Made by a program: the position numbers and the translations under genes
Source of the DNA: Microbacterium sp. W4I20
Lineage (GTDB): Bacteria; Actinomycetota; Actinomycetes; Actinomycetales; Microbacteriaceae
Assembly (NCBI RefSeq): GCF_030816505.1
Contig: NZ_JAUSYB010000001.1
Coordinates: forward strand, 3,162,001 to 3,226,000
Direction: 5' to 3'
Length of the DNA stretch: 64,000 nucleotides
Shown here: one piece after another, positions 40,778-57,642 of the stretch
How positions within the stretch are numbered: position 1 is the first letter of the stretch
How the letters are laid out: each line of letters begins with the position of its first letter
Notes under the pieces: generated by a model
The model's database searches: none
Told to the model about the DNA's origin: nothing
What the model saw: the letters and a program-made list of their open reading frames with translations, nothing else

Positions 40778-40838
40778 GTTCCGGTCGCGAAAACGCAGCG
40801 ATCCGACGCCGACCGGGGTGCATTTTCGCGACCGGAAC
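40778..40838. repeat. Family A intergenic palindrome, copy 1
   Basis: Arms 40778-40797 (GTTCCGGTCGCGAAAACGCA) and 40819-40838 are inverted with one mismatch, loop 21 bases. Located between the ends of convergent rlmN and the LysR gene. Same arms recur at 44531-44592 and 45816-45873. Confidence 0.8.
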
Positions 40839-40840
40839 AG

Positions 40841-41749: not shown

Positions 41750-41755
41750 CACGTG

Positions 41756-41767: not shown

Positions 41768-41815
41768 TACTCGAAGCCCTAGGTGGTGTGCCATCTCCTG
41801 AACTACTCTGACGGG

Positions 41816-42589: not shown

Positions 42590-43461
42590 GCACCGCGGAC
42601 GGTGGGCTCGCGACGACGGTCTTCGGCCCGTCGGACGATGAGCGCGCTCTGCTCGCGATCCACGGCATCACCGCGAACGGCCGCTCGTGGGACACGGTCG
42701 CCGCTCTGCTGGCGCGACGGCGCATGATCGCGCCCGATCTGCGCGGGCGCGGCCGCAGCAACGCCTTGCCGGGTCCCTACGGCCTCCGTACGCACGCCGC
42801 CGATCTCGCCGCGCTGCTGGATGCCGACGGCGGTGCGCCGCGCACGGTGATCGGCCACTCCATGGGCGCTTTCGTCGCGGTGGCGCTCGCCGGTGCGCGC
42901 CCCGACCTCGTCGACCGGCTCGTGCTCGTCGACGGCGGACTGCCGCTGGCCCTGCCCGCGGACGTCGCCCGGGTCGAAGACCTCGACCTCGGAGCCCTTC
43001 TCGGTCCGGCTGCGCAGCGGCTGTCGATGGAGTTCGCCGACGACGACGCCTACCTCGCGTTCTGGCGTGCGCACCCGGCCTTCGCGCGCGACTGGTCGCC
43101 CGCGGTCGAGGCCTACGCCCGGTACGACCTCGACGGCGAGGTGCCGCACCGCCGAGCATCCGCCGTCGCCGCGGCGATGTTCGAGGACGGCGCCGAGCTG
43201 TACGGACCCGACTGGTACCTCGACGCGCTGCGCTCGCTGCGGATGCCGGTGACCGTGCTCCGGGCGCCGCGGGGGCTGACCGACGCCGAGCCGCTGTATC
43301 CGGCCGGCGCTCTCGAGGGCTTCCGCGAACTCGTGCCTCAGCTCGAAGTGGTCGAGGTCGACGACGTGAACCACTACACGATCCTGTTCGCCGACCGCGG
43401 TGCCGTGCGCGTCGCCGCGGCGGCATCCGCTCATCCGAACCCGACGAAGGAGTCGACATGA
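42586..43461 (+). CDS. Alpha/beta-fold hydrolase
   Basis: The 291-residue protein has LLAIHGITANGRSWD (oxyanion HG), LRGRGRSN and the nucleophile elbow IGHSMGAFVAV (Ser near 89). The catalytic His is in DVNHYTIL. Ester or lactone substrate unknown; coupling to hbdH suggests hydroxyacid esters. Starts at ATG 42586 inside the hbdH stop (ATGA). Confidence 0.85.
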   Translation: MSTADGGLATTVFGPSDDERALLAIHGITANGRSWDTVAALLARRRMIAPDLRGRGRSNALPGPYGLRTHAADLAALLDADGGAPRTVIGHSMGAFVAVALAGARPDLVDRLVLVDGGLPLALPADVARVEDLDLGALLGPAAQRLSMEFADDDAYLAFWRAHPAFARDWSPAVEAYARYDLDGEVPHRRASAVAAAMFEDGAELYGPDWYLDALRSLRMPVTVLRAPRGLTDAEPLYPAGALEGFRELVPQLEVVEVDDVNHYTILFADRGAVRVAAAASAHPNPTKEST

Positions 43462-44522
43462 CCACTGCCCTTTTCGACGGCATCCGTTCGCACCGCATCG
43501 AGACGCCGCGCTACACCGCGAACGTGCTCGAGCGTGCGGCTGCCGATCCCGAGGCGCCGACATCGACCGTGGTGTTCGTGCACGGGAACGTGTCGTCGTC
43601 GCACTTCTATCAGCCGACCATGCTCGCCCTGCCCGCGGGAGTCCGCGCGCTCGCGATCGACCTCCGCGGCTTCGGCGACAGCGAGACGAAGCCGGTCGAC
43701 GCGACCCGTGGGCTGCGCGACTTCGCCGACGACGTGCGCGCCGTGCTCGACGCCCTCGGCCTCGACGCCGTGCACCTCGTGGGCTGGAGCATGGGTGGCG
43801 GCGTCGCGCTGCAGGTGCTGCTCGACGCGCCCGAGCGGGTGCTCTCGCTCACGCTCGAGTCACCCGTCTCGCCGTACGGGTTCGGCGGCACGCACGGTGC
43901 GGACGGCATCCGCAACGACGCCGACGGCGCCGGGACAGGAGGCGGGGGAGCGAACCCCGACTTCGTGGCCCGGCTCGAAGCGGGCGACACGACCGACGAG
44001 GCGCAGGCCTCTCCGCGCACGGTCTACCGCACCGCGTATGTCGCCCAGCCCGAGGGGCAGACCGCGCACGAGGACGCCTGGGTCGCGTCGATGCTCACCA
44101 CGCGCACCGGAATCGACAACTACCCGGGTGACGGCGTCGCCTCGGAGAACTGGCCGGGCTTCGCCGCCGGCACCAGGGGCGTGCTGAACACGATGGCGCC
44201 GCAGCATCTCGACCTCTCGGGGATCGTCGACCTGGAGGTGAAGCCGCCGATCCTCTGGATCCGCGGGGAGAAGGACGCGATCGTCTCGGATGCCTCGTTC
44301 TTCGACCTGAACCAGCTCGGCCTGCTCGGCGTCGTGCCGGGGTGGCCCGGTGCCGACGTCGCGCCGCCGCAGCCGATGGTCACCCAGACCCGGGCCGTCC
44401 TCGAGCGCTACTCGGCGGGTGGCGGCACGTACCGCGAGATCGCCCTGCCGGATGCCGGTCACGCGCCGCACCTCGACGAGCCGGAGGTCTTCGACACCGA
44501 GCTCGCCGCGCACATCGGCTGA
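43458..44522 (+). CDS. Alpha/beta-fold hydrolase
   Basis: The 354-residue protein has VVFVHGNVSSSHFYQPT, LRGFGDSETKPVD, the elbow VGWSMGGGVALQVLL and the His in PDAGHAPHLDEPEVF. A 100-residue cap (SPYGFGGTHGADGIRNDADG...) is longer than in its neighbour. ATGA overlap with the preceding hydrolase and AAGGAG make it the third gene of the hbdH operon. Substrate unknown. Confidence 0.86.
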   Translation: MTTALFDGIRSHRIETPRYTANVLERAAADPEAPTSTVVFVHGNVSSSHFYQPTMLALPAGVRALAIDLRGFGDSETKPVDATRGLRDFADDVRAVLDALGLDAVHLVGWSMGGGVALQVLLDAPERVLSLTLESPVSPYGFGGTHGADGIRNDADGAGTGGGGANPDFVARLEAGDTTDEAQASPRTVYRTAYVAQPEGQTAHEDAWVASMLTTRTGIDNYPGDGVASENWPGFAAGTRGVLNTMAPQHLDLSGIVDLEVKPPILWIRGEKDAIVSDASFFDLNQLGLLGVVPGWPGADVAPPQPMVTQTRAVLERYSAGGGTYREIALPDAGHAPHLDEPEVFDTELAAHIG

Positions 44523-44530
44523 GAGATTCG

Positions 44531-44592
44531 GCTCCCGTCGCGGAAAAGCATCCATTCCGACCGCCGATCGATGACTTTCTGCGACCGGAACT
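44531..44592. repeat. Family A intergenic palindrome, copy 2 (degenerate)
   Basis: CTCCCGTCGCGGAAAAGCATC (from 44532) pairs imperfectly with 44570-44592, which on the other strand reads TTCCGGTCGCAGAAAG. It lies between the convergent hydrolase and quinone-reductase genes. Arms resemble those at 40778-40838. Confidence 0.6.
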
Positions 44593-44597
44593 CGCGG

Positions 44598-45170
44598 TCA
44601 GTGCGCTGAGCGGCCGGCGTCCTTGGCGCCGAGAGCCTCGGCGCGCTCGAGCCAGCGGGTGATCGTGGGCTCCTTTGCGTCCTTGACGCCCAGCATCCGG
44701 TGCGTGCGCACGGTGCGGATGCCGCAGAGCCGCATCGTGTTGCGGGCGACGTGGGTCTGCGCGGGGAGTCCGGTCAACGGAGCGGCGAACCACGGGGTGT
44801 CGGCGAGCAGCAGCAGGCGCCCGCGCCGAGCGGGCAGCAGGCCCTCGGGGAGCCCGAGCTTCGAGTAGCGGTACTCCTGCTGCGGGAGCAGAGCGCGGTC
44901 GAAGAAGCCCTTCAGGACGGCGGGGACCGATCCCCACCACAGCGGCGTCGTCACCACCACGGTGCTCGCCTCGCTGAGCGCCCGCTTCGCGTCGACGAGG
45001 TCGGGTTCGAGCAGCATCCGCTCCCGATAGCCGAACCGCAGGTGCGGATCGAAGTCGAGGTCGCGGAGCGCGAGCACGCGGGCATCGCCGTGCCCATCCG
45101 CGTAGCGCTGCGCGAGCGCGGCCGTCAGAGAGCGGGCATCGGGGTGGCCGTCGATCACGAGTGCAGTCAT
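44598..45170 (-). CDS. NAD(P)H dehydrogenase (quinone), flavodoxin-like fold
   Basis: The 190-residue protein matches the NQO1/KefF family: ALVIDGHPDARSLTAALAQRY, FDPHLRFGYRERMLLEPDL, VVVTTPLWWGSVPAVLKGFFDRALLP (flavin site) and WFAAPLTGLPAQTHV. It probably reduces quinones with FMN/FAD. Divergent from a TetR gene over two copies of a TGGACACTGTCAAG sequence, so likely its target. Confidence 0.87.
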   Translation of the reverse strand: MTALVIDGHPDARSLTAALAQRYADGHGDARVLALRDLDFDPHLRFGYRERMLLEPDLVDAKRALSEASTVVVTTPLWWGSVPAVLKGFFDRALLPQQEYRYSKLGLPEGLLPARRGRLLLLADTPWFAAPLTGLPAQTHVARNTMRLCGIRTVRTHRMLGVKDAKEPTITRWLERAEALGAKDAGRSAH

Positions 45171-45185
45171 GGCGTCATTCCTATC

Positions 45186-45217
45186 TGGACACTGTCAAGC
45201 TGGTGGACACTGTCAAG
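45186..45217. promoter_or_regulatory. Two TGGACACTGTCAAG direct repeats, TetR operator
   Basis: Exact 14-base copies at 45186-45199 and 45204-45217, offset 18 bases, each holding a GACA-C-TGTC dyad. They sit between the divergent quinone reductase and TetR genes, just upstream of GATAAT (45224-45229), the TetR -10. Confidence 0.7.
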
Positions 45218-45236
45218 ATAAGAGATAATGTTGCTC

Positions 45237-45806
45237 ATGTCAAGTTCGAAAGACGGCTACCACCACGGCGACCTCGCCCGCGCGCTCGAAGACGCCGCCA
45301 TGCAGCTCCTGGAGCGGATGCCGGCTGCCGAGATCAGCCTTCGCGAAGTCGCGCGCGCCGCGAACGTCAGCCACAACGCGCCCTACCACCACTTCGCCGA
45401 CCGGCTCGGGCTGCTCAAGGCGATCGCCGAGCGCAGCATGGCCGACCTCCTCGACGAGGTGCGCGCCGCGGCCGCCTCGGCCCGCACCCCGCGCACCGTG
45501 CTGATCGCGGGGGGCTCCGCCTACATCCGCTTCGCCGTCGAGCATCCGCACGCGTTCGACGCCGTCTACGACCCGACCGTCTGCATCCCGGGCTCGCCGA
45601 CCGCCACCATGGCGCCGCTCATCGAGGGGCTCGAGAACGTGCTGGCCGAGGCCGCGATCTCGGCCGGGCTCGACGGTCCGGCCGACGTCGTGGCGCTCTG
45701 GGGTCTCATCCACGGCCTGGGCACGCTCGCCGCCGCGGGGCACTTCACGCTCGACGACGCCATCGCCGCCCACATCGGGACCGTTGATCGGCTGCTCGCC
45801 GGGTGA
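45237..45806 (+). CDS. TetR-family transcriptional regulator
   Basis: The 189-residue protein has the N-terminal HTH (YHHGDLARALEDAAMQLLERMPAAEISLREVARAANVSHNAPYHHFADRLGLLKAIAE) and a TetR_C-like domain. GATAAT ends 7 bases before ATG 45237. It probably represses itself and the divergent quinone reductase via the paired sites. Inducer unknown. Confidence 0.9.
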   Translation: MSSSKDGYHHGDLARALEDAAMQLLERMPAAEISLREVARAANVSHNAPYHHFADRLGLLKAIAERSMADLLDEVRAAAASARTPRTVLIAGGSAYIRFAVEHPHAFDAVYDPTVCIPGSPTATMAPLIEGLENVLAEAAISAGLDGPADVVALWGLIHGLGTLAAAGHFTLDDAIAAHIGTVDRLLAG

Positions 45807-45815
45807 TTCTCCGGC

Positions 45816-45873
45816 TCCGGTCGCGATAACGCATCGAAATGAGCCCCGGATAGCGGTATTTCCGCGACCGGAA
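45816..45873. repeat. Family A intergenic palindrome, copy 3
   Basis: TCCGGTCGCG (45816-45825) and CGCGACCGGA (45863-45872) form the core; flanks pair imperfectly. Unlike copies 1 and 2 it lies between two same-direction genes (TetR and DUF4407). Confidence 0.65.
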
Positions 45874-45954
45874 CGGCCGACCATGGACCGATTCCGGGCT
45901 GGCACGCAGGACTCTCGCAACCGATCCACAGGCGACCTTTCGTAGATTGTGCGG

Positions 45955-47550
45955 ATGCCCTATTCCGCCCATCGACCGGGTCGCTTCGACTCGCAGGGTC
46001 GGATCATCCTCGACAGCGACCCGAACGCCGAGACGGATGACCTCGACTTCCTGCGCGAGTTCGAGCCCGCCGGTTCCGACGACGAGCCCTTCCTCGCGTC
46101 GCCCGCCGACACCCTGACGTCACCGCGTCGACCCGCCGGATCGGATGCTGACGCCGAGGCTTCCGCGGGGTCCGCGGCCGAGTCTCCCTCCGAGTCCGCC
46201 GGTCCTGCGAAGCCCCGTCGACAGCCGCGCGTACGTGCGCCGCGTCGGCCGCGTACGCCGGGATCGCGCGCCCGCAGCCTCGCGATCCTCGGCGGTGCGG
46301 AGGGCGAGATCCTCGACCGCGTCCCCGGTGAGACGCCGCGGTTCGTGCAGATGTTCTTCGTGCTGGCCGGTACCGCCCTCGTCTCGGCGATCTCCATGCT
46401 GTTCGCGCTGACCACCGGTGTGCAGGCGGCGATCTGGCTGGCCGTGCCGCTCGCGCTCGTCTGGGCGCTCATCATCTTCAACCTCGACCGCTTCCTGACG
46501 TCGACGATGACCTCGACCAAGAACGTGTGGCGACTCATCGGTCTGGCGATTCCGCGAGTGATCATGGCCGCGATCATCGGCTTCGTCGTCGCCGAACCGC
46601 TCGTGCTGCAGGTCTTCCACAACGACATCGCCCGCGAGGTCGCGTCGACCAACATCACCCAGTCGCAGTCCGACCAGGAGGCCCTCGAGACCGGTCCGGA
46701 GAAGATCGCTCTGGATGCGGCATCCGCTCGCGTTGCCGAGCTCGAGAACCAGGCGGCCACCGGCATCGTCGCCGGTACAGAGTCGTCCTCGGCGACCGAG
46801 TCGGCCGCGCAGGCGACCGTCGACGACCTGACCGCGAAGATGGCCGAACAGCAGAAGGTCATCGATCAGGCGCGCGCGCTCTACCAGTGCGAGTTGACGG
46901 GCGAGGGCGCGGGGACCGTGCCCGGATGCACCGGCGTGAACGGCGAGGGCGCGAGCTCGGATGCCGCCGAGGCCCAGCTCGCCGAAGCGCAGCAGACTCA
47001 GGACGCCCTCGCCGCGCAGCTGCGCACCGCGAACGAGGAGCTCGCCGCGGCCGGCACCGCCGCCAAGGAGAACACCTCCACCTCGGAGTCGCAGAACCGC
47101 GAGCAGGCGAAGACCCAGCTGCCCGGCGCACGCGACACCTACGACCAGGCACTCGCCGCGTACAACGAGCGGGCGGATGCCGTGGCCCAGGGCAACGCGG
47201 GAGCCGTCGGTCTCCTCAGCCAGATCAGCGGGCTCAATCGGCTGAGCGAGAAGGAGCCCACGATCCTGTGGGCGCACATCCTGATCGCTGCGCTGTTCTT
47301 CATGATCGAGCTGCTGCCGGTGCTGGTGAAGGTGCTCACGAGTTACGGTGAGCCGAGCCTGTACGAGAAGGCCATGGCGATCCGCAAGCAGGTCGCGCTG
47401 GACCGGGTGACCGCCGAGGGCTTCCGGGACCGTGCCGCCATCGTGACGACGCCGGTGCCAGAGCCTCCGGCGGCTGCGCCCGCGGCTGCGTCCGCTGCGC
47501 CTCCGGCACCGGCGCCGGCACCGGCACCGGCACCGGTTCAGGCGACCTGA
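45955..47550 (+). CDS. DUF4407 membrane protein
   Basis: The 531-residue protein has an acidic/basic disordered N-terminus (about 1-115), helices at about 123-145, 150-170 and 190-215, a long Ala/Gln/Glu-rich probable coiled coil (about 235-415), a fourth helix (LWAHILIAALFFMIELLPVLVKVL) and an Ala-Pro repeat tail (APAPAPAPAPVQ). This is the DUF4407 layout; function unknown. ATG 45955 follows TAGATT plus 6 bases. Confidence 0.85.
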   Translation: MPYSAHRPGRFDSQGRIILDSDPNAETDDLDFLREFEPAGSDDEPFLASPADTLTSPRRPAGSDADAEASAGSAAESPSESAGPAKPRRQPRVRAPRRPRTPGSRARSLAILGGAEGEILDRVPGETPRFVQMFFVLAGTALVSAISMLFALTTGVQAAIWLAVPLALVWALIIFNLDRFLTSTMTSTKNVWRLIGLAIPRVIMAAIIGFVVAEPLVLQVFHNDIAREVASTNITQSQSDQEALETGPEKIALDAASARVAELENQAATGIVAGTESSSATESAAQATVDDLTAKMAEQQKVIDQARALYQCELTGEGAGTVPGCTGVNGEGASSDAAEAQLAEAQQTQDALAAQLRTANEELAAAGTAAKENTSTSESQNREQAKTQLPGARDTYDQALAAYNERADAVAQGNAGAVGLLSQISGLNRLSEKEPTILWAHILIAALFFMIELLPVLVKVLTSYGEPSLYEKAMAIRKQVALDRVTAEGFRDRAAIVTTPVPEPPAAAPAAASAAPPAPAPAPAPAPVQAT

Positions 47551-47900
47551 GGCTCCGTCTCTCGTTCGAATCGCGCAATTGGGCGATTTGCCACCGGTTT
47601 AGCCCCCAGTTGCGCGATTCGAACGTCGAGCGGGTGGCCGAGCAGGTCGTCGAGTCGCATGTTCCGCAGGCGCGGGGCGGTCTGGACCGCTGAGGCGATC
47701 GAGCGGACGAGCGCGATCGTCGACGGCTCCTGCTGCCACGAGGTGCCGGTCAGGGCCGCGTCGATCACGCTCAGCGGACGTCGGAGTGCGTCGTCGTGCG
47801 TGCGGGAGTCGTCGCCGAGCCATTCCAGGAGATCGCGGATGGTCCAATCCGAGATAATTGGCTCAAGAAGGTCGTCGAGACTGGTGCGCAGAGAGGTCAT
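47538..47900 (-). CDS. Hypothetical protein, divergent from the MocR gene
   Basis: The 120-residue frame MTSLRTSLDDLLEPIISDW... has codon use typical of real genes here (GC-rich third positions) and no known motif. Its last 25 codons run through a family B palindrome and overlap the DUF4407 end by 13 bases, so the true C-terminus may be fortuitous. Start ATG 47900 is tentative. Confidence 0.5.
   Translation of the reverse strand: MTSLRTSLDDLLEPIISDWTIRDLLEWLGDDSRTHDDALRRPLSVIDAALTGTSWQQEPSTIALVRSIASAVQTAPRLRNMRLDDLLGHPLDVRIAQLGAKPVANRPIARFERETEPQVA
47564..47624. repeat. Family B intergenic palindrome, copy 1
   Basis: GTTCGAATCGCGCAATTGGG (47564-47583) pairs with 47605-47624 with one mismatch; loop 21 bases. 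It overlaps the 3' end of the minus-strand hypothetical gene. Same arms at 50476-50534 and 55880-55940. Confidence 0.8.
47840..47865. promoter_or_regulatory. Imperfect TGGTCCAAT...ATTGGCTCA pair, possible second MocR site
   Basis: TGGTCCAAT (47840-47848) and ATTGGCTCA (47857-47865) match the MocR box TTGGTCCA/TGGACCAA with two mismatches. It lies inside the start of the divergent hypothetical gene. Confidence 0.4.
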
Positions 47901-47952
47901 TGGTACAGAATCGGTTGTCATGACCCTCACCGACAGTGCCAATGGACGGCCA

Positions 47953-47994
47953 CTGGACCAAGGATCGGTCATACCGTCGAAATTGGTCCAGGCT
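47953..47994. promoter_or_regulatory. MocR box pair CTGGACCAA...TTGGTCCAG and -10 CAGGCT
   Basis: CTGGACCAA (47953-47961) and TTGGTCCAG (47983-47991) are perfect inverted 9-mers 21 bases apart. The second overlaps CAGGCT (47989-47994), which ends 6 bases before GTG 48001. Fits autoregulation by the MocR protein. Confidence 0.6.
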
Positions 47995-48000
47995 GGCGAG

Positions 48001-49404
48001 GTGGCGTCGCAGGCGCTCGCCGCCCGACTCGGACGGTGGACTCAGGGCGACGGCACGCTCGCAGGTCGTCTCGCTCGCGGTATCGCCGGGCTCATCGAGA
48101 CCGGCGAGCTGCATCCGGGCGATCGACTGCCTCCTGAGCGCGCGCTCGCCGTGGCCGGATCCGTGTCGCGGGGGACTGTCGTCGCTGCATACGCCGATCT
48201 GGCGGAGCGCGGGCTGGTGGAACGTCGACAAGGGAGTGGTACGCGGATCGCCGGCTCCGCAGCATCCGCCACCCCGATCCAGCGACCCGGACGCGGCGAG
48301 GCGCTGTTCTCGGCGCTGCCCAACGCGATCGACCTGCTGCGCACCGTGCCCCAGATCCCCGAGCTCGCGGTGCAGCTCATCCGCGACCATCAGCCCCGCC
48401 TCGACCTCGCGCTGCTCCCCGAGACCGACCCTGCCGGGCTCCCCGTGCTGCGCGAGCTCATCGCCGAGATGTACCGCGGGGAGGGGACCCCGACCACCCC
48501 CGAGCAGATTCTCGTCACGCACGGCGCCCAGCAGGCGATCAGCCTCGTCGTGAACGCGCTGGTCGGCCCGGGCGATGTCGTGCTCGCCGAGGAGATCACC
48601 TGGCCGGGCGTCACCGACTCGGTGGGCCTGCGCGGCGGCACCGTGCACGGCATCCCGATGGGCCCCGACGGGCTCGACGTCGATGCCCTCGAGCAGGCGC
48701 TCGCGCGACTGCGTCCGGTGCTCGTCGCTGTCAATCCGCACCACCAGAACCCCACCGGTACCCGACTGCCCGCTGCGGCGCGCCATCGTGTCGCCGAACT
48801 CGCCGCGCAGTACGGCGTGCCCGTGATCGAGGATCGCGTCGTCGCCGGCATCTCGTTCGACGGCGTGGTGCCTCCCACGCTCGCGGCCGAGCGGCCGGAC
48901 GCGCCGATCATCGTCGTCGAGTCGGTGTCGAAGTGGGCCTGGGCGGGACTGCGGATCGGCTGGCTGCGCGCCGACCCCGTGCTCGTGCGGCGACTTCGTG
49001 GCGCGCGGCAGCTCGCCGACCAGTCCACCAGCGTGCCGGGCCAGCTCATCGCGCTCGACCTCATCGCCCATGCCGAGGAGCTGCGACGGGCGAACAGCCG
49101 CATCCATCAGGAACGCCTGCACCTCCTCCAGCGGCTGATGGCCGAGCATCTGCCCGACTGGCGCGTCGAGCCGCCCCGCGGGGGCCTTTCGCTCTGGGTC
49201 GCGCTGCCCCTCGGTTCAGCCGAGGCGCTGGCCAGGGTCGCCGCCGCGCACGGCGTCTCGATAGCCGGAAGCGCCGCGTTCGCGGCATCCGTCTCTTCCG
49301 ACGACCACATCCGCATCCCGTTCACAGCCCCCGACGACGTGCTCGCCGAGGGGATCCGCCGGCTCGGCGAGGCGTGGCGGGAGTATCGGGAGACACTCGG
49401 GTGA
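48001..49404 (+). CDS. MocR/PdxR-type GntR regulator with aminotransferase domain
   Basis: The 467-residue protein fuses a GntR HTH (LARGIAGLIETGELHPGDRLPPERALAVAGSVSRGTVVAAYADLAERGLV) to a class I aminotransferase-like domain with HGAQQAISLVV, PHHQNPTGTRLP, EDRV and the PLP Lys in ESVSKWAWAGLRIGW. It would sense PLP or an amino compound. GTG 48001 is preferred to ATG 47920 (494 residues), because the latter would put the MocR boxes inside the gene. Confidence 0.87.
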   Translation: MASQALAARLGRWTQGDGTLAGRLARGIAGLIETGELHPGDRLPPERALAVAGSVSRGTVVAAYADLAERGLVERRQGSGTRIAGSAASATPIQRPGRGEALFSALPNAIDLLRTVPQIPELAVQLIRDHQPRLDLALLPETDPAGLPVLRELIAEMYRGEGTPTTPEQILVTHGAQQAISLVVNALVGPGDVVLAEEITWPGVTDSVGLRGGTVHGIPMGPDGLDVDALEQALARLRPVLVAVNPHHQNPTGTRLPAAARHRVAELAAQYGVPVIEDRVVAGISFDGVVPPTLAAERPDAPIIVVESVSKWAWAGLRIGWLRADPVLVRRLRGARQLADQSTSVPGQLIALDLIAHAEELRRANSRIHQERLHLLQRLMAEHLPDWRVEPPRGGLSLWVALPLGSAEALARVAAAHGVSIAGSAAFAASVSSDDHIRIPFTAPDDVLAEGIRRLGEAWREYRETLG

Positions 49405-49457
49405 GACCGGTCACGGAAACCTGCCCCTGCGGTCGTGACAGCCAGTAGCGTTGATCC

Positions 49458-50471
49458 ATGGTCAACTATCGCTTCCTCGGAAACAGCGGTCTCAAGGTCT
49501 CGGAGATCACCTACGGCAACTGGGTCACGCACGCCTCGCAGGTGGGCGACGACGCCGCCGTCAAGACGGTCCACGCAGCCCTCGATGCCGGCATCACCAC
49601 GTTCGACACGGCAGACACGTACGCCAACACAGCGGCCGAGGTCGTGCTCGGCAAGGCCCTCGAAGGGCAGCGCCGCGAGGGCCTCGAGATCTTCACGAAG
49701 GTCTACTTCCCGACCGGCCCGAAGGGCCCGAACGACACCGGCCTGAGCCGCAAGCACATCCTCGAGTCGATCAACGGCTCGCTGACGCGCCTCGGCACCG
49801 ACTATGTCGACCTGTACCAGGCGCACCGCTTCGACTACGAGACTCCTCTCGAGGAGACCTTCCAGGCGTTCGCCGACGTCGTCCGCCAGGGCAAGGCGCT
49901 CTACATCGGCGTCTCCGAGTGGACCGCGGAGCAGCTCCGCGAGGGTCACGCGCTCGCGAAGCAGCTCGGCATCCAGCTCATCTCGAACCAGCCGCAGTAC
50001 TCGATGCTGTGGCGCGTCATCGAGGGCAAGGTCGTGCCGGCGTCGGAAGAGCTCGGCATCTCGCAGATCGTCTGGTCGCCGATGGCGCAGGGCGTGCTCA
50101 GCGGCAAGTACCTCCCCGGCCAGCCGGTGCCCGAGGGATCCCGCGCGACCGACCCGCACAGCGGAGCGGACTTCATCAAGAGCTTCCTGCAGGACGACAT
50201 CCTGACCGCGGTGCAGCGCCTGAAGCCGATCGCCGAGGAGGCGGGCCTGTCCATGCCGCAGCTCGCGATCGCGTGGGTGCTGCAGAACCCCAACGTCGCC
50301 GCCGCCCTCGTCGGCGCGTCGCGTCCCGAGCAGCTGGCCGAGACCGTCAAGGCCTCGGGCGTGAAGCTCGACGCCGACACGCTCGCCGCGATCGACACGG
50401 CTCTGGGCGACGCGGTCAACCGCGACGCCGAGGCCACGTACTCGACCTCGCCGAAGTCGCGCCTGGTCTGA
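49458..50471 (+). CDS. Aldo/keto reductase, potassium-channel-beta-like
   Basis: The 337-residue protein has RFLGNSGLKVSEITYGNW, the catalytic set D-T-A-D-x-Y (FDTADTYANTAAEVVLGKAL), the Lys in EIFTKVYFP and DYVDLYQAHRFD, with NADPH-binding ALVGASRPEQL near the end. It belongs to the KCNAB/YghZ-like AKR group. TAGCGT ends 6 bases before ATG 49458. Followed by a perfect palindrome. Confidence 0.9.
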   Translation: MVNYRFLGNSGLKVSEITYGNWVTHASQVGDDAAVKTVHAALDAGITTFDTADTYANTAAEVVLGKALEGQRREGLEIFTKVYFPTGPKGPNDTGLSRKHILESINGSLTRLGTDYVDLYQAHRFDYETPLEETFQAFADVVRQGKALYIGVSEWTAEQLREGHALAKQLGIQLISNQPQYSMLWRVIEGKVVPASEELGISQIVWSPMAQGVLSGKYLPGQPVPEGSRATDPHSGADFIKSFLQDDILTAVQRLKPIAEEAGLSMPQLAIAWVLQNPNVAAALVGASRPEQLAETVKASGVKLDADTLAAIDTALGDAVNRDAEATYSTSPKSRLV

Positions 50472-50475
50472 CCTG

Positions 50476-50534
50476 TTCGAATCGCGCAAATGGGGCCATC
50501 CGCGACGCGGATGGCCCCATTTGCGCGATTCGAA
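50476..50534. repeat. Family B intergenic palindrome, copy 2 (perfect, 29-base arms)
   Basis: Positions 50476-50504 and 50506-50534 are exact reverse complements with one central base. Outer 19 bases (TTCGAATCGCGCAAATGGG) are the family B arm. It lies between the convergent aldo/keto reductase and ABC permease genes and could end both transcripts. Confidence 0.9.
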
Positions 50535-50539
50535 GGTGG

Positions 50540-51445
50540 CTACTCCTTGACCGCACCGGCCGTCAGACCCTGCACGATCCAGCGGCTCGCGAGCGCGAAC
50601 ATCGCCATGGTCGGCAGGATCGTCAGAACCGCCGCGGCGCTCATCGAACCCCAGTCGATGTTGAACGTCGAGATGAACCCGTTCAGCGCCGACGGCACGG
50701 TGCGGTTCGCGTCGGTGTTCATCAGCACCACCGACAGGAACAGCTCGTTCCAGCAGTTGACGAAGTTGAAGATGAACGCCGCGATGATGCCCGGGGTCAT
50801 GACCGGCACCAGCACCCGGAACAGGGCGCCGAGGCGGGAGCATCCGTCGATCATCGCCGCTTCCTCCAGGGCATCCGGCACGTTCTCGAAGAAGCCGCGC
50901 AGCATGACTGTGGAGAACGGGATGCAGATCGCGATGTAGACCAGGATGAGTCCGGGTTTGGTGTCGACCAGACCCAGTTCGGTCATCATCGAGTACAGCG
51001 GTCCGAGCGCGATGAACGCCGGGATCATCTGCGTGAGCAGGAACGCGACCAGCACCGCTCCCTTGCCGCGGAACTCGAAGCGCGCGATCACGTAGGCGCT
51101 CAGCAGCGCGATCAATGTCGCCACCCCGCCGGCGACGACCGCCACCAGGGCGGAGTTGCCGAGGAAGACCGCGAACTGGCTCTGCTGGAACAGCTTCACG
51201 TAGTTGTCGAACGAGGGCTCGCTCGGCCAGTACTCGATGGGGAACCTGTTGATCGTGCCCGGCGACTTGATCGACGTCAGCGCGATCCAGTACAGCGGGA
51301 AGAGCGTGATCACGAGCCACAGCGCCAGACCCACGACGCGGACCACGCCGCCGACGGTGACGCGCGCCTTCGGGCGGGGCGACTTCGCGATGTCCGGCAC
51401 GGTGAGACGTCGGGTCTCCGTGACCGTCGTTCCGGTGATCGTCAT
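50540..51445 (-). CDS. Sugar-type ABC transporter permease (MalG-like)
   Basis: The 301-residue inner-membrane protein has six helices and the permease EAA loop (ENVPDALEEAAMIDGCSRLGALFRVLVPVMTPG), with LWLVITLFPLYWIALTSIK at the first helix. It pairs with the MalF-like gene; ATG 51445 overlaps that gene's stop. Last gene of the aminotransferase-ABC operon. Confidence 0.93.
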   Translation of the reverse strand: MTITGTTVTETRRLTVPDIAKSPRPKARVTVGGVVRVVGLALWLVITLFPLYWIALTSIKSPGTINRFPIEYWPSEPSFDNYVKLFQQSQFAVFLGNSALVAVVAGGVATLIALLSAYVIARFEFRGKGAVLVAFLLTQMIPAFIALGPLYSMMTELGLVDTKPGLILVYIAICIPFSTVMLRGFFENVPDALEEAAMIDGCSRLGALFRVLVPVMTPGIIAAFIFNFVNCWNELFLSVVLMNTDANRTVPSALNGFISTFNIDWGSMSAAAVLTILPTMAMFALASRWIVQGLTAGAVKE

Positions 51446-52401
51446 CGCCGTGCCCTCCGCATCGCCATCAGGTAGAACGCGCAGAACACGAACAGGAACG
51501 CGACGACGATCAGGCCGATCGCGCTGGCTATGCCGTAGTTGCCCTGCTGGGTGTAGTTGATCATCCAGGTCGTGATGATGTGCGTCTGGTTCGCCGGCCC
51601 GCCGTTCGTCATCGCGTAGATGATGTCGGGGAAGTTGAAGATCCAGATGATGCGCAGCAGGATCGTGAGCAGCAGCGTCATCGAGATGTACGGGATGATG
51701 ATCGAGAACAGCTGCCGCACCTTGCCGGCGCCGTCGAGGCTCGCCGCCTCCAGCATCTCGTCGGGCACAGACTGCAGCGCCGCGAGGATCATGATCGCGA
51801 AGAACGTGACGCCGTACCAGACGTTCGCCACGATCACCGCGAACATCGCGAGCTTCGGATCGGCCAGCCACGGCAGCGGTGCATCGATCAGGCCGGCCTT
51901 CATGAGCAGGTCGTTCACGACGCCGAACTCGGCGTTGAACATCCAGCGGAACAGCATCCCGATCAGGAATCCCGACACCGCCCACGGGAAGAACACGAGC
52001 GCCTGGTAGAGCCCGCGGAAGCGGAACCGCTTGCGCAGCGCGAGGGCGATCAGGAAGCCGATCACCAGCTGCGGCACGAGCGACCCGACGACCCAGAGGA
52101 TCGAGTTCCACGCCACGACCGGGAACGCCGGATCCTGGAACACCGTGACGAAGTTCTGGAACCCGACCCAGGGGGTGGACGTCAGGTCCCACAGGTTCCA
52201 GTCGTGGAAGGCCATGCGGGCGCCCTGCAGCATCGGCCAATAGGTGAACCAACAGACGAACACGATCGCCGGCGCCATGAACGCCAGGAGCGTCAGCGCG
52301 TGGCGGCCGCGGAACGGCCGGCGGCGAGGGCCGGGGGAGGCACCGGCAGCTGCTCTGTCAGGAGCAGTGCCGACGCCTCCCTCACGAAGGGCGGATGCCA
52401 C
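51442..52401 (-). CDS. Sugar-type ABC transporter permease (MalF-like)
   Basis: The 319-residue permease has LLAFMAPAIVFVCWFTYWPMLQG, an EAA loop (SVPDEMLEAASLDGAGKVRQLFSIIIPYI) and helices to LFVFCAFYLMAMRRARR. Start GTG 52401 lies 4 bases after the binding-protein stop. Partner of the MalG-like permease. Confidence 0.92.
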   Translation of the reverse strand: MASALREGGVGTAPDRAAAGASPGPRRRPFRGRHALTLLAFMAPAIVFVCWFTYWPMLQGARMAFHDWNLWDLTSTPWVGFQNFVTVFQDPAFPVVAWNSILWVVGSLVPQLVIGFLIALALRKRFRFRGLYQALVFFPWAVSGFLIGMLFRWMFNAEFGVVNDLLMKAGLIDAPLPWLADPKLAMFAVIVANVWYGVTFFAIMILAALQSVPDEMLEAASLDGAGKVRQLFSIIIPYISMTLLLTILLRIIWIFNFPDIIYAMTNGGPANQTHIITTWMINYTQQGNYGIASAIGLIVVAFLFVFCAFYLMAMRRARR

Positions 52402-52405
52402 GGGC

Positions 52406-53716
52406 TCAGCCCTTCTCCGCGGCGTACTTCTCCGTCCAGAAGACGTCCCACGACTCCAGCAGCTCACTGGTCGACATGTTGCCGAGCAGCACGTTCTGCA
52501 CATCCTGGTCGGACTTCTGGATCCACTCGGTCCACCAGCTGACGCCGCGCGGCTGGCGCACGTTGACGTAGGTGTCGGGGTCTTCGGTCATCGTGACGTA
52601 GCTCGTCCACGGGCCGGTGGAGTAGAACTCGTCGTCGGCGGCCTCGGTGATGATCGGCACCAGGCTGTTCGCCTGCGCGAACTCGGTGGCGGGCTCGGCC
52701 GACGAGAGGAACTCGACCAGCTTCACGGCCGCCTCGGTGTTCTCGCTCTTCTCGGCGACACCCCATCCGGCGACGGCCAGCGGCTGCGCGGCCTTGCCCG
52801 AGGGCCCGGTGAGCAGCGGAGCGGTGTCCCACTGGTCCTCGGTCAGCGAGGAGTCCTGCACGGTCGCGATGACCTCGGGGTCCTGCAGCAGGAACGCGGT
52901 GGTGCCGTTGGTGAAGCCGGCGACCATCTCGGGGTAGCCCCACGACACGGCGGACGGCGGGGATGCTTCCTTGAACAGGTCGAAGTAGTCGTCGACAGCC
53001 TCCTGCGCCTCCGGGGCGGCGAAGATCGTCGAGCCGTCCTCCATCAAGAAGGCATCGTCGACGTTCAGCCCGTCGATCGTGTACGCCTCGATGGCGGCCA
53101 CCACGTTGCTGTTGGCGTTGGGACCGCCGCGGAAGGCGTAGCCGTAGACGTTGTTCGACGGGTCCTGGATGGCGGATGCCTGCTCGAGCAGGTCCTTCCA
53201 GCTGTTCGGCGGTCCGTCGAAGCCGGCCTTCTCGACGAGGTCGGTCCGGTAGAACAGCGAGAGGCCGTAGAAGCCGTAGGGGACGAAGTAGCTCTTGCCG
53301 TCCTCGGCGACGGATGCGGACTTCGCGTTGTCGGTGAGGGCGTCCCAGCCGTCCCACTTCTCGAGGTCGGAGCCGAGATCGTGCAGCCAGCCGTTGTTCG
53401 CGAACGGACCGACGGTGATGTCGCGCACCTCGAGCACGTCGACGCCCTTGCCGGACTGCAGCATCTGCTGGATCTTCGCGTCGGCCTGCTCGGTGGGCGG
53501 CGAGACCAGGTTGACCTTGATCTTCGGGTTCTCCTTCTCGAACTCGTCGAGGAGTCCCCGGATGAGCTCGGTGCGCGCCGGGTTGGTCAGGCTCTCGACC
53601 ATCTGCAGGGTGACGGTGCCGTCGGCGGACGGGCCGCCGCCGGACGAGCAGCCGGTGAGCGCCAGGACGGCGACGGTGCCGATGCCTGCTGCTGTCGTCA
53701 AGATCTTGTTCTTCAC
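52406..53716 (-). CDS. ABC transporter substrate-binding lipoprotein (family 1, sugar-type)
   Basis: The 436-residue protein has a signal peptide with lipobox LTGC (ILTTAAGIGTVAVLALTGCSSGGG) and a family 1 solute-binding fold (LQMVESLTNPARTELIRGLLDEFEKENPKIKVNLV...). The ligand is unknown; linkage to an aminotransferase suggests an amino-bearing compound. GTG 53716 follows GAGAGG by 6 bases. The leader has two CACCCGAAAC direct repeats (53736-53763) before the start. Confidence 0.92.
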   Translation of the reverse strand: MKNKILTTAAGIGTVAVLALTGCSSGGGPSADGTVTLQMVESLTNPARTELIRGLLDEFEKENPKIKVNLVSPPTEQADAKIQQMLQSGKGVDVLEVRDITVGPFANNGWLHDLGSDLEKWDGWDALTDNAKSASVAEDGKSYFVPYGFYGLSLFYRTDLVEKAGFDGPPNSWKDLLEQASAIQDPSNNVYGYAFRGGPNANSNVVAAIEAYTIDGLNVDDAFLMEDGSTIFAAPEAQEAVDDYFDLFKEASPPSAVSWGYPEMVAGFTNGTTAFLLQDPEVIATVQDSSLTEDQWDTAPLLTGPSGKAAQPLAVAGWGVAEKSENTEAAVKLVEFLSSAEPATEFAQANSLVPIITEAADDEFYSTGPWTSYVTMTEDPDTYVNVRQPRGVSWWTEWIQKSDQDVQNVLLGNMSTSELLESWDVFWTEKYAAEKG

Positions 53717-53783
53717 GATGTGCCTCTCAGTTGGTGTTTCGGGTGTGATGCGGGTTTCGGGTGCGGTTCGGATGGGGCGCGGG

Positions 53784-55019
53784 TCAGGGGATGATGACGG
53801 ATTCGGTGGAGCGGATGCCCGCGCGCTGGAGGATCTGCGGGATGCAGCGCTCGACGAAGGCCTCGAAATCGGATGCTTCGCTGTACAGGTGCGCCGACAG
53901 GCGGAAGTAGCCGATGCCGCGGAAGCTGGTGAACGCCGTCTCGACGCCGACCTCGTCGAGCAGGTCCATGCGCAGGGCGTCGGCCTCTTCCCTGGTCGCG
54001 CCGAGGCCGAGCGGGAGGCGGACGAGCCGCATCGACGGGACGGGCGAGGGGAGAGGGGTGAGGGGGTCGGCATCCGCGTAGGGGCGGAAGCCCTCGGCGA
54101 TGATCTCGGCACCGGCATCCGCCATCCGCGTCATGGTCTCGCGCGCCTGCTGCCAGCCGAACTCCGTCTCGATGAAGTCGATCGCCGCAGGGGTGGCGAG
54201 GTAGGTCGTCGCGTCGATCGTGCCCTGGGTGTCGAAGCGCGCGGGGTACGGCTCGTTCGCGGCCCAGGAGTCGATGAGGGGCCAGAGCTCGTCACGGTCG
54301 GGGGCTTGGGTCACGAGCAGCGCGGAGCCGCGCGGGGCGCAGGGCCACTTGTGCAGGTTGCCGAACCACCAGTCGCCGCCCGCGACGGCCGCGGCATCCG
54401 GAATCAGGCCGGGGGCGTGGGCGCCGTCGACGAGGGTGCGCACACCGCGGGCGGCGGCGAGTTCCGCGATGCGGCGGGTGGGCAGCAGGCGGGCCGTGGG
54501 TGAGGTGATCTGGTCGACGACGATGAGCCTTGTGCGCGGGGTGAGGGCATCGGCGAAGAGCTCGACGATCTCGTCGTCGGAGCCCAACAGGGGGAGCTCG
54601 ACGACCCGGACGGTCGCGCGGAACCTGCGGGCGAGGCGCTGCGCGCCCATGGTGATCGCGCCGTAGCCCTGGTCGGTGACGAGGATCTCGTCGTCGCCGT
54701 CGAGCTGCAGCGCGTTGTAGACCACGGTCGCCGCGGCGGACGCGTTGGGCACGAAGGCGGCGTCCTCGGGGCGTGCGCCGACGAAGGGCGCGGTGCGCTC
54801 GCGGGCCTCGAGCACCCGCTCGGCGATGCGCGGGAACCACTCGACCGGGCTGAGGTCCGCCTGTCGTCGCAGTGCGTCCTGGTGGGCGACGACGGCCGAG
54901 GGGACGGCCCCGAACGAGCCGTGGTTGAGGTGGACGATCTGCGGATCCAGCGGCCAGGCATCTCGTGCGCGCGCGAACGACTTCAGTCGGAGCGGTGCGG
55001 GGAAGTCGGTGGCCTGCAT
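53784..55019 (-). CDS. Class V aminotransferase, isopenicillin-N-epimerase-like
   Basis: The 411-residue PLP enzyme has VHLNHGSFGAVPSAVVAHQ, DQITSPTARLLP, VDGAHAPG (Asp198) and Lys224 in GNLHKWPCAPRG. This is the NifS/CefD class; the N-H-G-S-F-G motif is typical of isopenicillin-N epimerase and related desulfurases or racemases. The actual reaction is unknown. First gene of an operon with the ABC importer, divergent from a FadR-type regulator. Confidence 0.88.
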   Translation of the reverse strand: MQATDFPAPLRLKSFARARDAWPLDPQIVHLNHGSFGAVPSAVVAHQDALRRQADLSPVEWFPRIAERVLEARERTAPFVGARPEDAAFVPNASAAATVVYNALQLDGDDEILVTDQGYGAITMGAQRLARRFRATVRVVELPLLGSDDEIVELFADALTPRTRLIVVDQITSPTARLLPTRRIAELAAARGVRTLVDGAHAPGLIPDAAAVAGGDWWFGNLHKWPCAPRGSALLVTQAPDRDELWPLIDSWAANEPYPARFDTQGTIDATTYLATPAAIDFIETEFGWQQARETMTRMADAGAEIIAEGFRPYADADPLTPLPSPVPSMRLVRLPLGLGATREEADALRMDLLDEVGVETAFTSFRGIGYFRLSAHLYSEASDFEAFVERCIPQILQRAGIRSTESVIIP

Positions 55020-55044
55020 GGATCCTCATCAGCGAAGTCGGGGG

Positions 55045-55059
55045 AGTTGTTGCACAACT
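55045..55059. promoter_or_regulatory. AGTTGT-TGC-ACAACT, FadR-type operator 1
   Basis: Perfect 6-base arms; core TTGT-TGC-ACAA fits T-N-G-T-N3-A-C-N-A of FadR-subfamily sites. Placed 26 bases upstream of the aminotransferase start. Confidence 0.65.
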
Positions 55060-55109
55060 TTGCCACAGCGCGGTGCTGTGCACCAGAAAACGCGCATAAT
55101 TTAACAAAG

Positions 55110-55120
55110 TCGTCATACGA
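55110..55120. promoter_or_regulatory. TCGT-CAT-ACGA, FadR-type operator 2
   Basis: A second T-N-G-T-N3-A-C-N-A dyad, 63 bases from the first, upstream of the GntR gene. CATAAT (55095-55100) just before it is a possible -10. Confidence 0.55.
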
Positions 55121-55182
55121 GTTGGTTGCGCGGTGCGCGTCCGACAGACTCGCAGGAGATCCGAGTGCCAGAGGAGAACACC

Positions 55183-55866
55183 ATGAGCGCGTTGGACAAA
55201 GCGCTGCACGGACTGCGGGCACTCATCGCCGACGGCGTGCTGCAGCCGGGCGACCGACTGCCGAGCGAGGGCGAGCTGTGCGAGCGGCTCGGGGTCTCCC
55301 GCGGTTCGCTGCGCGAGGCCATCCGCACACTCGGTGCCCTGGGCGTGCTCGAGACGCGGCACGGATCCGGCAGCTACGTCAGCGAGCTGCGGGCGGCCGA
55401 TCTGATCGGGAGCCTCTCACTCACGGTCGGCCTGCTGCCGATGGCCGGTGTGCTCGAACTCACCGAGCTGCGTCGGGTGCTCGAGCCGCACGCCGCCGCG
55501 CTCGCCGCCGCGCGGATCGACGCCGAGACGCTGGAGAAGCTGGATCGCGTGCTGGATGAGATCGAGGCGAGCGACGACTTCGAGGACCACTCGCGGCTCG
55601 ACCACCAGTTCCACATGACCATCTCGCGGGTCGCGGGCAACGACGCGCTCACGAGCCTGATCGACGTGCTGCGCTCGCGGTCGCGGGCCTACCGGATCCC
55701 GGACGCGGGCGACGCCGCAGAGCTCAAGCTGCACTCGGATGCCGGGCACCGCGCGATCCTTCGCGGACTTGCCGCCGCCGATCCGGTCGCGGCATCCGCT
55801 GCCGCGTCGTCACACGTGGCGTACACGGAGTACTGGGTGCGGCGCTACACCGACGTCGAGGGGTAG
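55183..55866 (+). CDS. FadR-subfamily GntR regulator (of the aminotransferase-ABC operon)
   Basis: The 227-residue protein has the GntR HTH (LRALIADGVLQPGDRLPSEGELCERLGVSRGSLREAIRTLGALGVLETRHGSGSYV) and an FCD ligand domain with metal-type His (DHQFHMTISRVAGN, and HSDAGHRAIL). It probably senses the imported compound and represses the divergent operon. GAGGAG precedes ATG 55183. Confidence 0.92.
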   Translation: MSALDKALHGLRALIADGVLQPGDRLPSEGELCERLGVSRGSLREAIRTLGALGVLETRHGSGSYVSELRAADLIGSLSLTVGLLPMAGVLELTELRRVLEPHAAALAAARIDAETLEKLDRVLDEIEASDDFEDHSRLDHQFHMTISRVAGNDALTSLIDVLRSRSRAYRIPDAGDAAELKLHSDAGHRAILRGLAAADPVAASAAASSHVAYTEYWVRRYTDVEG

Positions 55867-55879
55867 CTGCGCTTACCCT

Positions 55880-55940
55880 TTTCGAATCGCGCAATTGGGG
55901 GTGAATCGACCCTGTATCGCCCCAGTTGCGCGATTCGAAA
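55880..55940. repeat. Family B intergenic palindrome, copy 3
   Basis: TTTCGAATCGCGCAATTGGG (55880-55899) plus one G pairs with 55920-55940 with one mismatch; loop 19 bases. Between convergent GntR and ACT-protein genes. Confidence 0.8.
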
Positions 55941-55952
55941 GCCAGGGCGTGG

Positions 55953-56468
55953 TCAGGCGAGGGTGATGTCGACCTGGATCTCGGCGGCGATCCGCTCGAG
56001 GTCGGCGCGGAGGGCGTCGAGATCGACGGATGCCGGAACGCGTGCGGTCACCGATGCCTCGAACAGGCGGCCGCCGGCCATCGCGGCGTCGCGAGTCTCG
56101 GTCGCCAGCTCCTCGATGCTCAGGGCGTGCGCACTCAACACCGTCGAGATCTCGCGGACGATGCCGTGGCGGTCGTTGCCGAGCACCTGGATCGACAGGA
56201 GCTGCTCGTCTTCGGGGTCGGCGGCAGCGCTGCCGGTGAGGACGGCGAGGGTCAGCAGGCCCTGACCCTGCAGAGTGCGCAGCGCGGTCTGCAGTTCGGC
56301 CGCGCGGTCGTCGGCGACCGACACCTCGATGACTCCGGCGAACGTGCCGGCGAGTTCGGCCAGGGAACTGTTCTCCCAGTTGCCGCCGTGCGCATCGACG
56401 ACATCGGCGACGGCGGCGACGAGGCCCGGGCGGTCCGCGCCGGCGACGGTGAGGATCAGAGTAGTCAT
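55953..56468 (-). CDS. Double ACT-domain protein, GcvR-like
   Basis: The 171-residue protein is two ACT domains: TLILTVAGADRPGLVAAVADVVDAHGGNWENSS (1-80) and LLSIQVLGNDRHGIVREISTVLSAHALSIEELATET (about 95-171). GcvR-type proteins regulate glycine cleavage by protein contacts and bind amino acids. ATG 56468 has TACGCT ending 6 bases upstream. Confidence 0.87.
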   Translation of the reverse strand: MTTLILTVAGADRPGLVAAVADVVDAHGGNWENSSLAELAGTFAGVIEVSVADDRAAELQTALRTLQGQGLLTLAVLTGSAAADPEDEQLLSIQVLGNDRHGIVREISTVLSAHALSIEELATETRDAAMAGGRLFEASVTARVPASVDLDALRADLERIAAEIQVDITLA

Positions 56469-56481
56469 GCGGCCAGCGTAG

Positions 56482-56570
56482 CCGTTCACAATTCAGCCAG
56501 AATGGCCGGGATCGGGACGGAAACCGCCTCGTCTGGCCTTCCCGGCGAAAACCGACTGAGTTGTGAACGG
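56482..56570. repeat. Long-loop palindrome (family C)
   Basis: CCGTTCACAATTCAG (56482-56496) pairs with CTGAGTTGTGAACGG (56556-56570) with one mismatch; the loop has inner CCCGG pairing. Located between two same-strand genes. Confidence 0.6.
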
Positions 56571-56583
56571 ACGCAGCCGAGGC

Positions 56584-57642
56584 CTATTCGGCCCAGATGC
56601 CCGTCGCGAGGAAGTGCTCCAACCGCGCGCGGTGCGGGGCGAGGTCCCAGCCTTGCGCTGCGACCCACTCATCCGAGTAGTACGTGCCGGCGTAGCGGAT
56701 GCCGCTGTCGCAGATCAGTGTCACGACGCTGCCGGTCTCACCCGCGGCGCGCATGCGTGCGATGAGCTGGAACGCGCCGTAGAGGTTGGTGCCGGTCGAG
56801 CCGCCGGCCCAGTGCAGGGTGCGGTCGCGCAGCACGCGGATCGCGGCGACGGATCCGGCATCCGGCACGCGGATCATCTCGTCGATCACGCTCGGCACGA
56901 ACGAGGCCTCGAGGCGCGGGCGGCCGATGCCCTCGATGCGGCTCGGACGCCCGGCGGGCGGGTCGACAGTGCCGGCCCAGCCGTCGTAGAACGCGGACCC
57001 TTCCGGATCGACGACCGCGATCTGCGTCTCGTGGCGGCGGAATCTCACATAGCGGCCGAACGTCGCACTCGTGCCACCGGTGCCGGCGCCCACGACGATC
57101 CAGCGGGGGATCGGATGCCGCTCCTGCGCCAACTGGCTGAACACGCTCTCCGCGATGTTGTTGTTGCCGCGCCAGTCGGTCGCGCGCTCCGCGAACGTGA
57201 ACTGGTCGAGGTAGTGGCCGTGGCAGTCCGAGGCCAGCCGCTGCGCCTCCGGCGACATGTCCTCCGCACTGTCGACGAAGTGGCAGCGTCCGCCATAGAA
57301 CTCGATGAGGTCGATCTTCTCCTGGCTGGTCGAACGCGGCACGACCGTCACGAACGGCAGGCCGAGCATCCGCGCGAAGTACGCCTCGGAGACAGCCGTC
57401 GATCCGCTCGACGATTCGACCAGCGTGGTGTCCTCGTGGATACGGCCGTTGACCAGCCCGTACAGGATGAGCGACCGCGCGAGGCGGTGCTTGAGCGAGC
57501 CGGTCGGATGCACCGACTCGTCCTTCAAGTACAGGTCGATGCCCCACTCGGGCGGAAGCGGGAACAGGTGCAGGTGCGTGTCCGCGCTGCGATTGGCGTC
57601 GGCTTCCAGCAGGGCGATCGCGGTGCTGGTCCAGGAGGTCAC
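56584..57642 (-). CDS. PLP-dependent cysteine synthase family protein (Cds1-like)
   Basis: The 352-residue fold II enzyme has [23 protein letters not shown] with the PLP Lys, [34 protein letters not shown] (phosphate loop) and [12 protein letters not shown]. It matches actinobacterial Cds1-type L-cysteine desulfhydrases or PLP synthase paralogues more than CysK. GTG 57642 has TACGCT ending 6 bases upstream. Confidence 0.88.

Follow-up and report, generated by a model that had tools for sequence, protein, structure and literature searches.

Dispersed palindromes and the enzymes that go with them are a long-standing puzzle, which has been studied mainly by way of REP sequences and the Y1 transposase. 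REPINs are described in PMC3116915 as inverted doublets, conserved at the ends and less so in the middle; a genome holds several families of them, each beside its own single-copy enzyme, and the phylogeny of the RAYT enzyme follows that of the species. Two proteins that bind unusually long sites are also relevant here. According to PMC3985639, AbiEi binds a dyad in its own promoter, which is composed of two conserved 11-bp arms 27 bp apart (49 bp in total). The target of the EDxHD homing endonuclease I-Bth0305I, on which the enzyme forms a dimer, is nearly 60 bp long (PMC3943268). Endonucleases of the Vsr/DUF559 type are described together with cytosine methyltransferases and mismatch repair; the excerpts consulted describe no dispersed palindromes for them.

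Here we describe a family of 59-bp dyads in Microbacterium sp. W4I20, its sister families and a nuclease gene that is often found between two such dyads. The elements are real, have a fixed length, are scattered through the genome and are associated with one particular nuclease family. They resemble the REPIN-RAYT system in being dispersed inverted doublets that are better conserved at the ends than in the middle, and in occurring as several families per genome; they differ in that the associated enzyme is of the Vsr fold rather than Y1/HuH (Y1 is absent), the dyad of two 29-bp half-sites is fixed at 59-60 bp, and the enzyme gene lies between two copies. Resemblance to AbiEi consists of an AbiEi-like front (the likeness is weak) and a long dyad upstream of the gene, in which some 11 outer bases are conserved and the interior only loosely so; unlike AbiEi with its 49-bp promoter dyad, the present system has a fused nuclease domain, a second dyad past the gene and many dispersed copies. 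Unlike I-Bth0305I, which among homing endonucleases has the nearest fold, the nuclease is encoded by a free-standing chromosomal gene that is bracketed by dyads, and its presumed sites are dispersed over the genome. We regard it as probable that the dyads are the recognition sites of this AbiEi-like/Vsr-fold nuclease family, in a REPIN-RAYT-like system with an unrelated enzyme.

Dyads in the analysed window

The window (the whole stretch of 64,000 nucleotides that was analysed) contains three family B dyads, none of which is assigned to a strand. All three have the ends TTCGAATCGC...GCGATTCGAA, are exactly 59 bp long and are located at gene 3' ends. Copy 1 (47565..47623) follows a DUF4407 gene on the plus strand and is overlapped by the 3' end of a small minus-strand ORF (47538-47972), which reads through the palindrome. 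Copy 2 (50476..50534) lies between the convergent genes for an aldo-keto reductase (+) and an ABC permease (-), at 4-5 bp from the stop codon of each, and its 29-base arms pair perfectly around one central base. Copy 3 (55881..55939) is located between the convergent genes for an FCD/GntR regulator (+) and an ACT-domain protein (-). The 21-base arms of copies 1 and 3 are 95% complementary. Within the family B arms 14 bases (TTCGAATCGCGCAA) are identical and are followed by a degenerate stretch. The first-pass annotation had recognized all three palindromes, including the perfect pairing of copy 2; its ranges for copies 1 and 3 contain one extra paired base per side.

Three further 59-bp dyads in the window, missed in that first reading, belong to a sister family A, whose ends in the window follow the pattern [CT]TCC[CG]GTCGC; they too are assigned to neither strand. 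The first (40779..40837, TTCCGGTCGC ends) is located between the ends of a plus-strand ORF (39470-40771) and a minus-strand ORF (40841-42418), the second (44532..44590) has CTCCCGTCGC and TTCCGGTCGC ends, and the third (45815..45873, CTCCGGTCGC and TTCCGGTCGC ends) lies after a TetR-type gene (45231-45806).

Distribution in the genome and across genomes

The 14-mer TTCGAATCGCGCAA occurs 36 times in the W4I20 genome and the reversed control pattern not at all, which bears out the claim that the arms are more similar than expected by chance. When the whole genome was searched for TTCGAATC-N43-GATTCGAA with up to 2 mismatches allowed, 24 places were found, all with 0 mismatches in the outer 8 bases (control: 0); further copies, as expected of a dispersed element, thus do exist. 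A looser pattern yielded 42 places in the whole genome, comprising the 24 of family B, 16 of family A and 2 that fit neither. A scan that used no end sequence revealed a third family, C, with CTCCCGTGGC ends. Six copies of it are scattered over 284 kb rich in dyads, and another 18 kb contain a pair that surrounds a nuclease gene; ends of this type were absent from 160 kb from the far side, where only four weak palindromes were present. A single genome can hold several parallel dyad families, here A, B and C. The copies of families A and B all (40/40) lie within 1.40 Mb of dnaA (C1:2575380), and 34 of the 40 are in the dnaA-nearer half of the 4.18-Mb contig. A terminus marker of the matS kind was also considered and was rejected on account of this origin-side position.

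Family B is present in 25 of 149 genomes of the genus Microbacterium. A model built from 34 gapless elements of several dialects gave matches at E≤0.001 in 69 of the 149 genomes; at most 37 candidates were scored per genome and both strands were counted, so that the per-genome counts saturate. A loose end pattern matched in 60 of 299 Microbacteriaceae genomes. Many of these gave a single match, a number that the reversed control also reaches (0-3 per genome), but several matches with palindromic interiors were obtained in some other genera. Strings of 59 bp in Rhizobium (L137, L138, L157) lie inside called genes and look like chance, and were discarded. Strings from Gastranaerophilales are 60-62 bp long.

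Some gene junctions carry a dyad in seven different genomes. One of them is the histidine-phosphatase junction, located with tblastn, at which the seven genomes have the dyad. Among 30 genomes without family B, one (G021) carries at this junction a 59-bp dyad of another dialect, TTCGAGTCGC, and no such dyad was found there in the close genome G029 or in the 28 others. A few weaker palindromes of other lengths were seen at the junction among those 28.

Length and conservation of the dyad

Dyad length was determined by a scan of the named genomes in which the gap was free to vary between 24 and 54 bases (at least 120 stretches). Among the matches listed, 107 of the 112 distinct Microbacterium strings are exactly 59 bp long, the others measuring 57, 58, 58, 60 and 64 bp. 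Counting palindromes by length with nesting allowed (284 kb) gave 34 at 59, 38 at 61 and 31 at 57 bp and did not single out 59 bp; this count and a second length histogram are smeared because the arms nest and pair outward. The claim of a 59-bp length is based on the free-gap scan and on the strict bracket test described below, not on the nested-palindrome counts. Between the copies that bracket nuclease genes, identity is still 0.98 at a distance of 28 bases from the axis; it falls to 0.75 at 29 bases and to 0.21-0.43 from 32 bases outward, and this drop marks the boundary of the element.

Genomes G148 and G442 were compared in alignments of 93-97% identity. All of the 20 orthologous elements aligned without gaps, with 2 changes in 400 sites in the outer 10 bp, 48 in 640 at positions 11-26 and a difference of about 4% in the flanks. 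The match between left and right halves exceeded that of shuffled halves modestly at positions 11-15 (4, 71, 88 and 271 of 2000 shuffles reached it in G148, G443, W4I20 and G442, respectively); at positions 16-20 it lay above the shuffles in G148 only (29/2000), among these four genomes. When right halves were shuffled among the elements of one genome, the half match changed little. In the main, then, the palindrome consists of one degenerate half-site, specific to the genome, that is repeated in inverted orientation, an arrangement that speaks for a protein dimer.

Gene context

Gene context was assigned with a home-made codon-hexamer gene caller. Among 220 family B elements, 109 are located between codirectional, 62 between convergent and 26 between divergent genes, 16 fall within a called gene and 7 at an edge. 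In a smaller set, the element starts at a median of 11 bp past the upstream stop codon in 86 codirectional cases, 74 of which lie nearer to this stop than to the following start, and at a median of 13 bp after the stop in convergent cases.

Such positions, the 62 convergent cases among the 197 elements with a clear context, and the long hairpin that would form in any transcript suit bidirectional transcription terminators or mRNA 3'-end hairpins. We nevertheless hold this explanation to be improbable. A U-tract is absent at the dyads (no T-run in the flanks of the window copies), and a terminator consensus gave three matches in 40000-57000, none of them a dyad followed by a T-run, where shuffled sequences give 3.9. 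The mismatches on the transcript strand (116 codirectional cases) comprise 169 G-T against 194 A-C and show no preference for G-T, the length is fixed at 59 bp, and pairing of the inner stem is not kept beyond the half-site consensus, apart from the modest excess at positions 11-15 and that at 16-20 in G148 only. The 26 of 197 elements between divergent genes likewise count against a terminator. The first-pass annotation had suggested a dispersed element or a shared protein-binding terminator instead of three independent terminators; the dispersed family with a shared protein as the likely cause was upheld and the terminator role was not, although the dyads may have a side effect on termination. 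An RNA element was rejected as well; three Rfam matches were obtained at E≤1, all under their gathering scores, and there is no wobble signal.

As in REPINs, the copies are dispersed extragenic inverted pairs with conserved ends (24 copies, mostly by gene 3' ends), and this likeness, including the bias to 3' ends, would suit ordinary REP/REPIN elements that owe their mobility to a Y1 (RAYT) transposase. This explanation was rejected and is given hardly any credence, because a search of 50 Microbacterium genomes, of which half carry family B, found Y1_Tnp (PF01797) in none; the control search was positive in 5 of 14 well-known genomes. The earlier comparison with REP/BIME sequences is retained for the dispersed elements and dropped for the REP-associated tyrosine transposase.

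The bracketed nuclease

The advice to look for a dedicated enzyme led to a gene for an AbiEi-like/Vsr-fold (DUF559) protein, which is often bracketed by dyads, one typically within about 50-200 bp before the start and the other shortly after the stop. On sequence evidence the protein appears to be an AbiEi-like DNA-binding front, with a weak likeness to AbiEi, fused to a Vsr-fold (DUF559) endonuclease domain. For the L245 protein, Pfam gave nothing at E≤0.001, NCBIfam nothing above cut-off and a PDB sequence search only 3hrl_A (E 0.94). Foldseek gave no match at E≤0.001, so that the Vsr assignment rests on a second look, in which a Vsr-like catalytic fold was recognized. The columns E, D, E, H and D are conserved in 42 of 42 closer proteins; among the 20 distant ones, the first D column holds D in 11 proteins and E in 9. 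These columns may correspond to the E-D-H-D catalytic motif of EDxHD endonucleases.

A protein profile applied to the 149 genomes distinguished two groups, a closer set of 42 genes, found in 35 genomes, with scores above 300 bits, and distant paralogs with scores of 236 bits or less. A strict bracket test, in which a gene counts as bracketed if its start is preceded and its stop followed by palindromes that resemble each other, was passed by 35 of 62 nuclease genes (29/42 closer, 6/20 distant) and by 3 of 764 control genes, one of the three being a neighbour gene between real elements. Of the 35 bracketed genes, 28 have dyads of odd length and 7 have an even axis (about 60 bp). The displayed bracket pairs of L363 and L378 fit poorly. 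Among further distant paralogs, taken from genomes with 0-2 matches to the dyad model, 9 of 20 are bracketed. A looser flank test found a 59-bp palindrome on both sides of 27 of the 42 closer genes, on one side of 5 and on neither side of 10, and for the 20 distant genes the corresponding numbers were 8, 7 and 5; the strict test is preferred, as some weak matches of the looser one look like chance. Inspection by eye of three Arthrobacter homologs revealed matching palindromes on both sides in two and on one side in one. At 30 loci with elements from other genera, no adjoining nuclease-like gene was found.

The combination of AbiEi-like and restriction-like domains could indicate defence or self-recognition, with the Vsr-fold protein cutting DNA that lacks or carries dyads and the chromosomal copies serving as marks or regulatory sites. 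This is very unlikely in our judgement, considering that 50,697 phage records contained no homolog and that plasmids contributed only 3 large-plasmid matches, in Arthrobacter records at 29-33% identity.

Matching of enzyme and dyad dialects

Over the outer 10 bases, agreement is 9.5/10 within gene brackets versus 5.9 between genes. Protein identity is correlated with half-site similarity (Mantel r 0.544, 0/5000 permutations, n=35), and paralog and dyad, as far as sequence comparison can tell, change together. When the inner dialect of the B brackets was compared with that of the scattered copies, five of six genomes matched themselves best (rank 2 of 720), and the best match of the sixth was its close relative. 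At least five dyad-model matches are present in 33 of 35 genomes with a closer enzyme versus 18 of 114 others, counts that are uncorrected for kinship.

The missing unit and mobility

A B-type unit of dyad, gene and dyad (about 1.2 kb) occupies the same locus in L285 (G443), L147, L190 and L270 (G442), where it is flanked by a gene for methylmalonate-semialdehyde dehydrogenase (identity read from the sequence) and a conserved neighbour. In the W4I20 genome the same two neighbours are about 310 bp apart with neither dyad nor nuclease gene between them, and the break coincides, by eye, with the outer dyad ends to within about 20 bp. The absence in W4I20 represents either a loss or an empty site; a missing whole unit would fit EDxHD-type homing. 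Neither the protein profile nor this locus revealed a B-type enzyme in the W4I20 genome, despite the perfect B ends there, so either the enzyme was lost recently or another protein holds the sites.

Recent copying is suggested by the bracket pairs of L357 and L380, each 57/59 identical and agreeing at 17 and 16 of 17 central bases, respectively, versus at most 14 between different genes. Centre identity is weak as proof of copying, because scattered copies in G148 and G442 also reach 16/17. Of 26 comparable dyads, 25 are common to G148 and G442, which counts against simple mobility; the exception is replaced by another, partly palindromic sequence.

The dyads could instead be domesticated sites, to which a host protein, or else a retired relative of the nuclease, binds in the service of a host function such as gene insulation or origin-side chromosome organisation; the spreading of the dyads would be over and selection for that function would preserve their ends. 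The perfect B ends of W4I20 in a genome where no B-type enzyme was found, the identical gene junctions occupied in up to seven species, the 25 of 26 dyads shared by two species and the concentration in the dnaA-nearer half of the chromosome all agree with this explanation, which we rate as rather unlikely while giving it appreciable weight. Pure host function predicts neither the dialect-matched bracketing of nuclease genes nor the 26 positions between divergent genes, and no host reader protein was identified.

Proposed mechanism and significance

Under the preferred reading, of dyads as nuclease recognition sites, each dyad of about 59 bp would consist of two 29-bp half-sites, to which the nuclease would bind as a dimer via the outer arms. 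The upstream dyad would allow the nuclease to regulate its own gene, the Vsr domain would nick or cut at the dyads, and repair from another copy would have spread and maintained the sites, with dialect copies scattered as satellites mostly 5-15 bp past stop codons. An AbiEi-like reader joined to an I-Bth0305I-like catalytic domain, encoded between 59-bp dyads, fits both published binders of long sites. More tentatively, and with somewhat less than even confidence, we propose that the dyad-nuclease-dyad arrangement may represent a chromosomal element of a class not described before, mobile or drive-like and widespread among Actinobacteria. Its AbiEi-Vsr nuclease would act as a dimer and cut at its own sites of 59-60 bp, and new gene ends would acquire dyads, or on rare occasions the complete unit, through copying by repair.

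Literature searches, whose coverage mostly excludes subscription journals, found no work joining REPIN, RAYT and Actinobacteria, none on Microbacterium intergenic palindromes between convergent genes and none joining VSR endonucleases with REP; no title or abstract start linked DUF559 or AbiEi-type proteins to dispersed palindromes. Within this coverage the pairing of dyad and nuclease is rated as new, whereas its parts have known relatives.

It would be surprising if the puzzle of dispersed palindromes had a second solution, based on an unrelated nuclease and on sites whose length is exact. The dyads would then provide presumed target sites for a common family of proteins whose function is unknown (DUF559 with an AbiEi-like front), and the idea is directly testable, since many genes are flanked by their presumed target and the paralog dialects offer ready comparisons of specificity. 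If the drive-like reading holds, the REPIN-RAYT way of life would have been invented a second time independently, and many DUF559 proteins that lack an explanation would be accounted for.

Other palindromic sequences

No inverted repeat in the window is longer than the one at 29090-29179, whose two 42-base arms are separated by 6 bases and show 79% complementarity. Elsewhere in the Microbacterium sp. W4I20 genome (G000), two near-identical 59-bp palindromes with GCCGACACGCC ends occur at C1:3284073 and C1:3284313 (18073 and 18313 of the extracted stretch L417), a spacing of 240 bp, and these possibly represent another family. A palindrome with CGAGCCACCCC ends is located at C1:3303823 of the same genome (17823 of stretch L418). 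In the Microbacterium genome G148 (stretch L435), a partly palindromic sequence resembling this CGAGCCACCCC-ended palindrome occupies the position at which G442, also a Microbacterium genome, carries a family B dyad. Near position 1560 of the short contig L328, the 10-base dyad end occurs a second time 13 bases onward, which may reflect either incomplete tandem duplication or an artefact of the assembly end.

Outside Microbacterium, G372, a genome of another genus, contains 59-bp dyads at C1:1559504 and C1:1561789, 2.3 kb apart; they differ at only 2 of 59 bases, a near-identity that suggests recent copying. Metagenome-assembled genomes of Gastranaerophilales (L081, L106 and L149) carry TTCGAATCGC palindromes of 60-62 bp with an AT-rich interior, three of them within approximately 650 bp in L106.

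Overlap with a coding sequence

The 3' end of the small minus-strand gene at window positions 47538-47972 is encoded by the palindrome, as is that of the orthologous gene in G148 (L282, 1248-1577), and the dyad thus contributes part of the tail of the protein.
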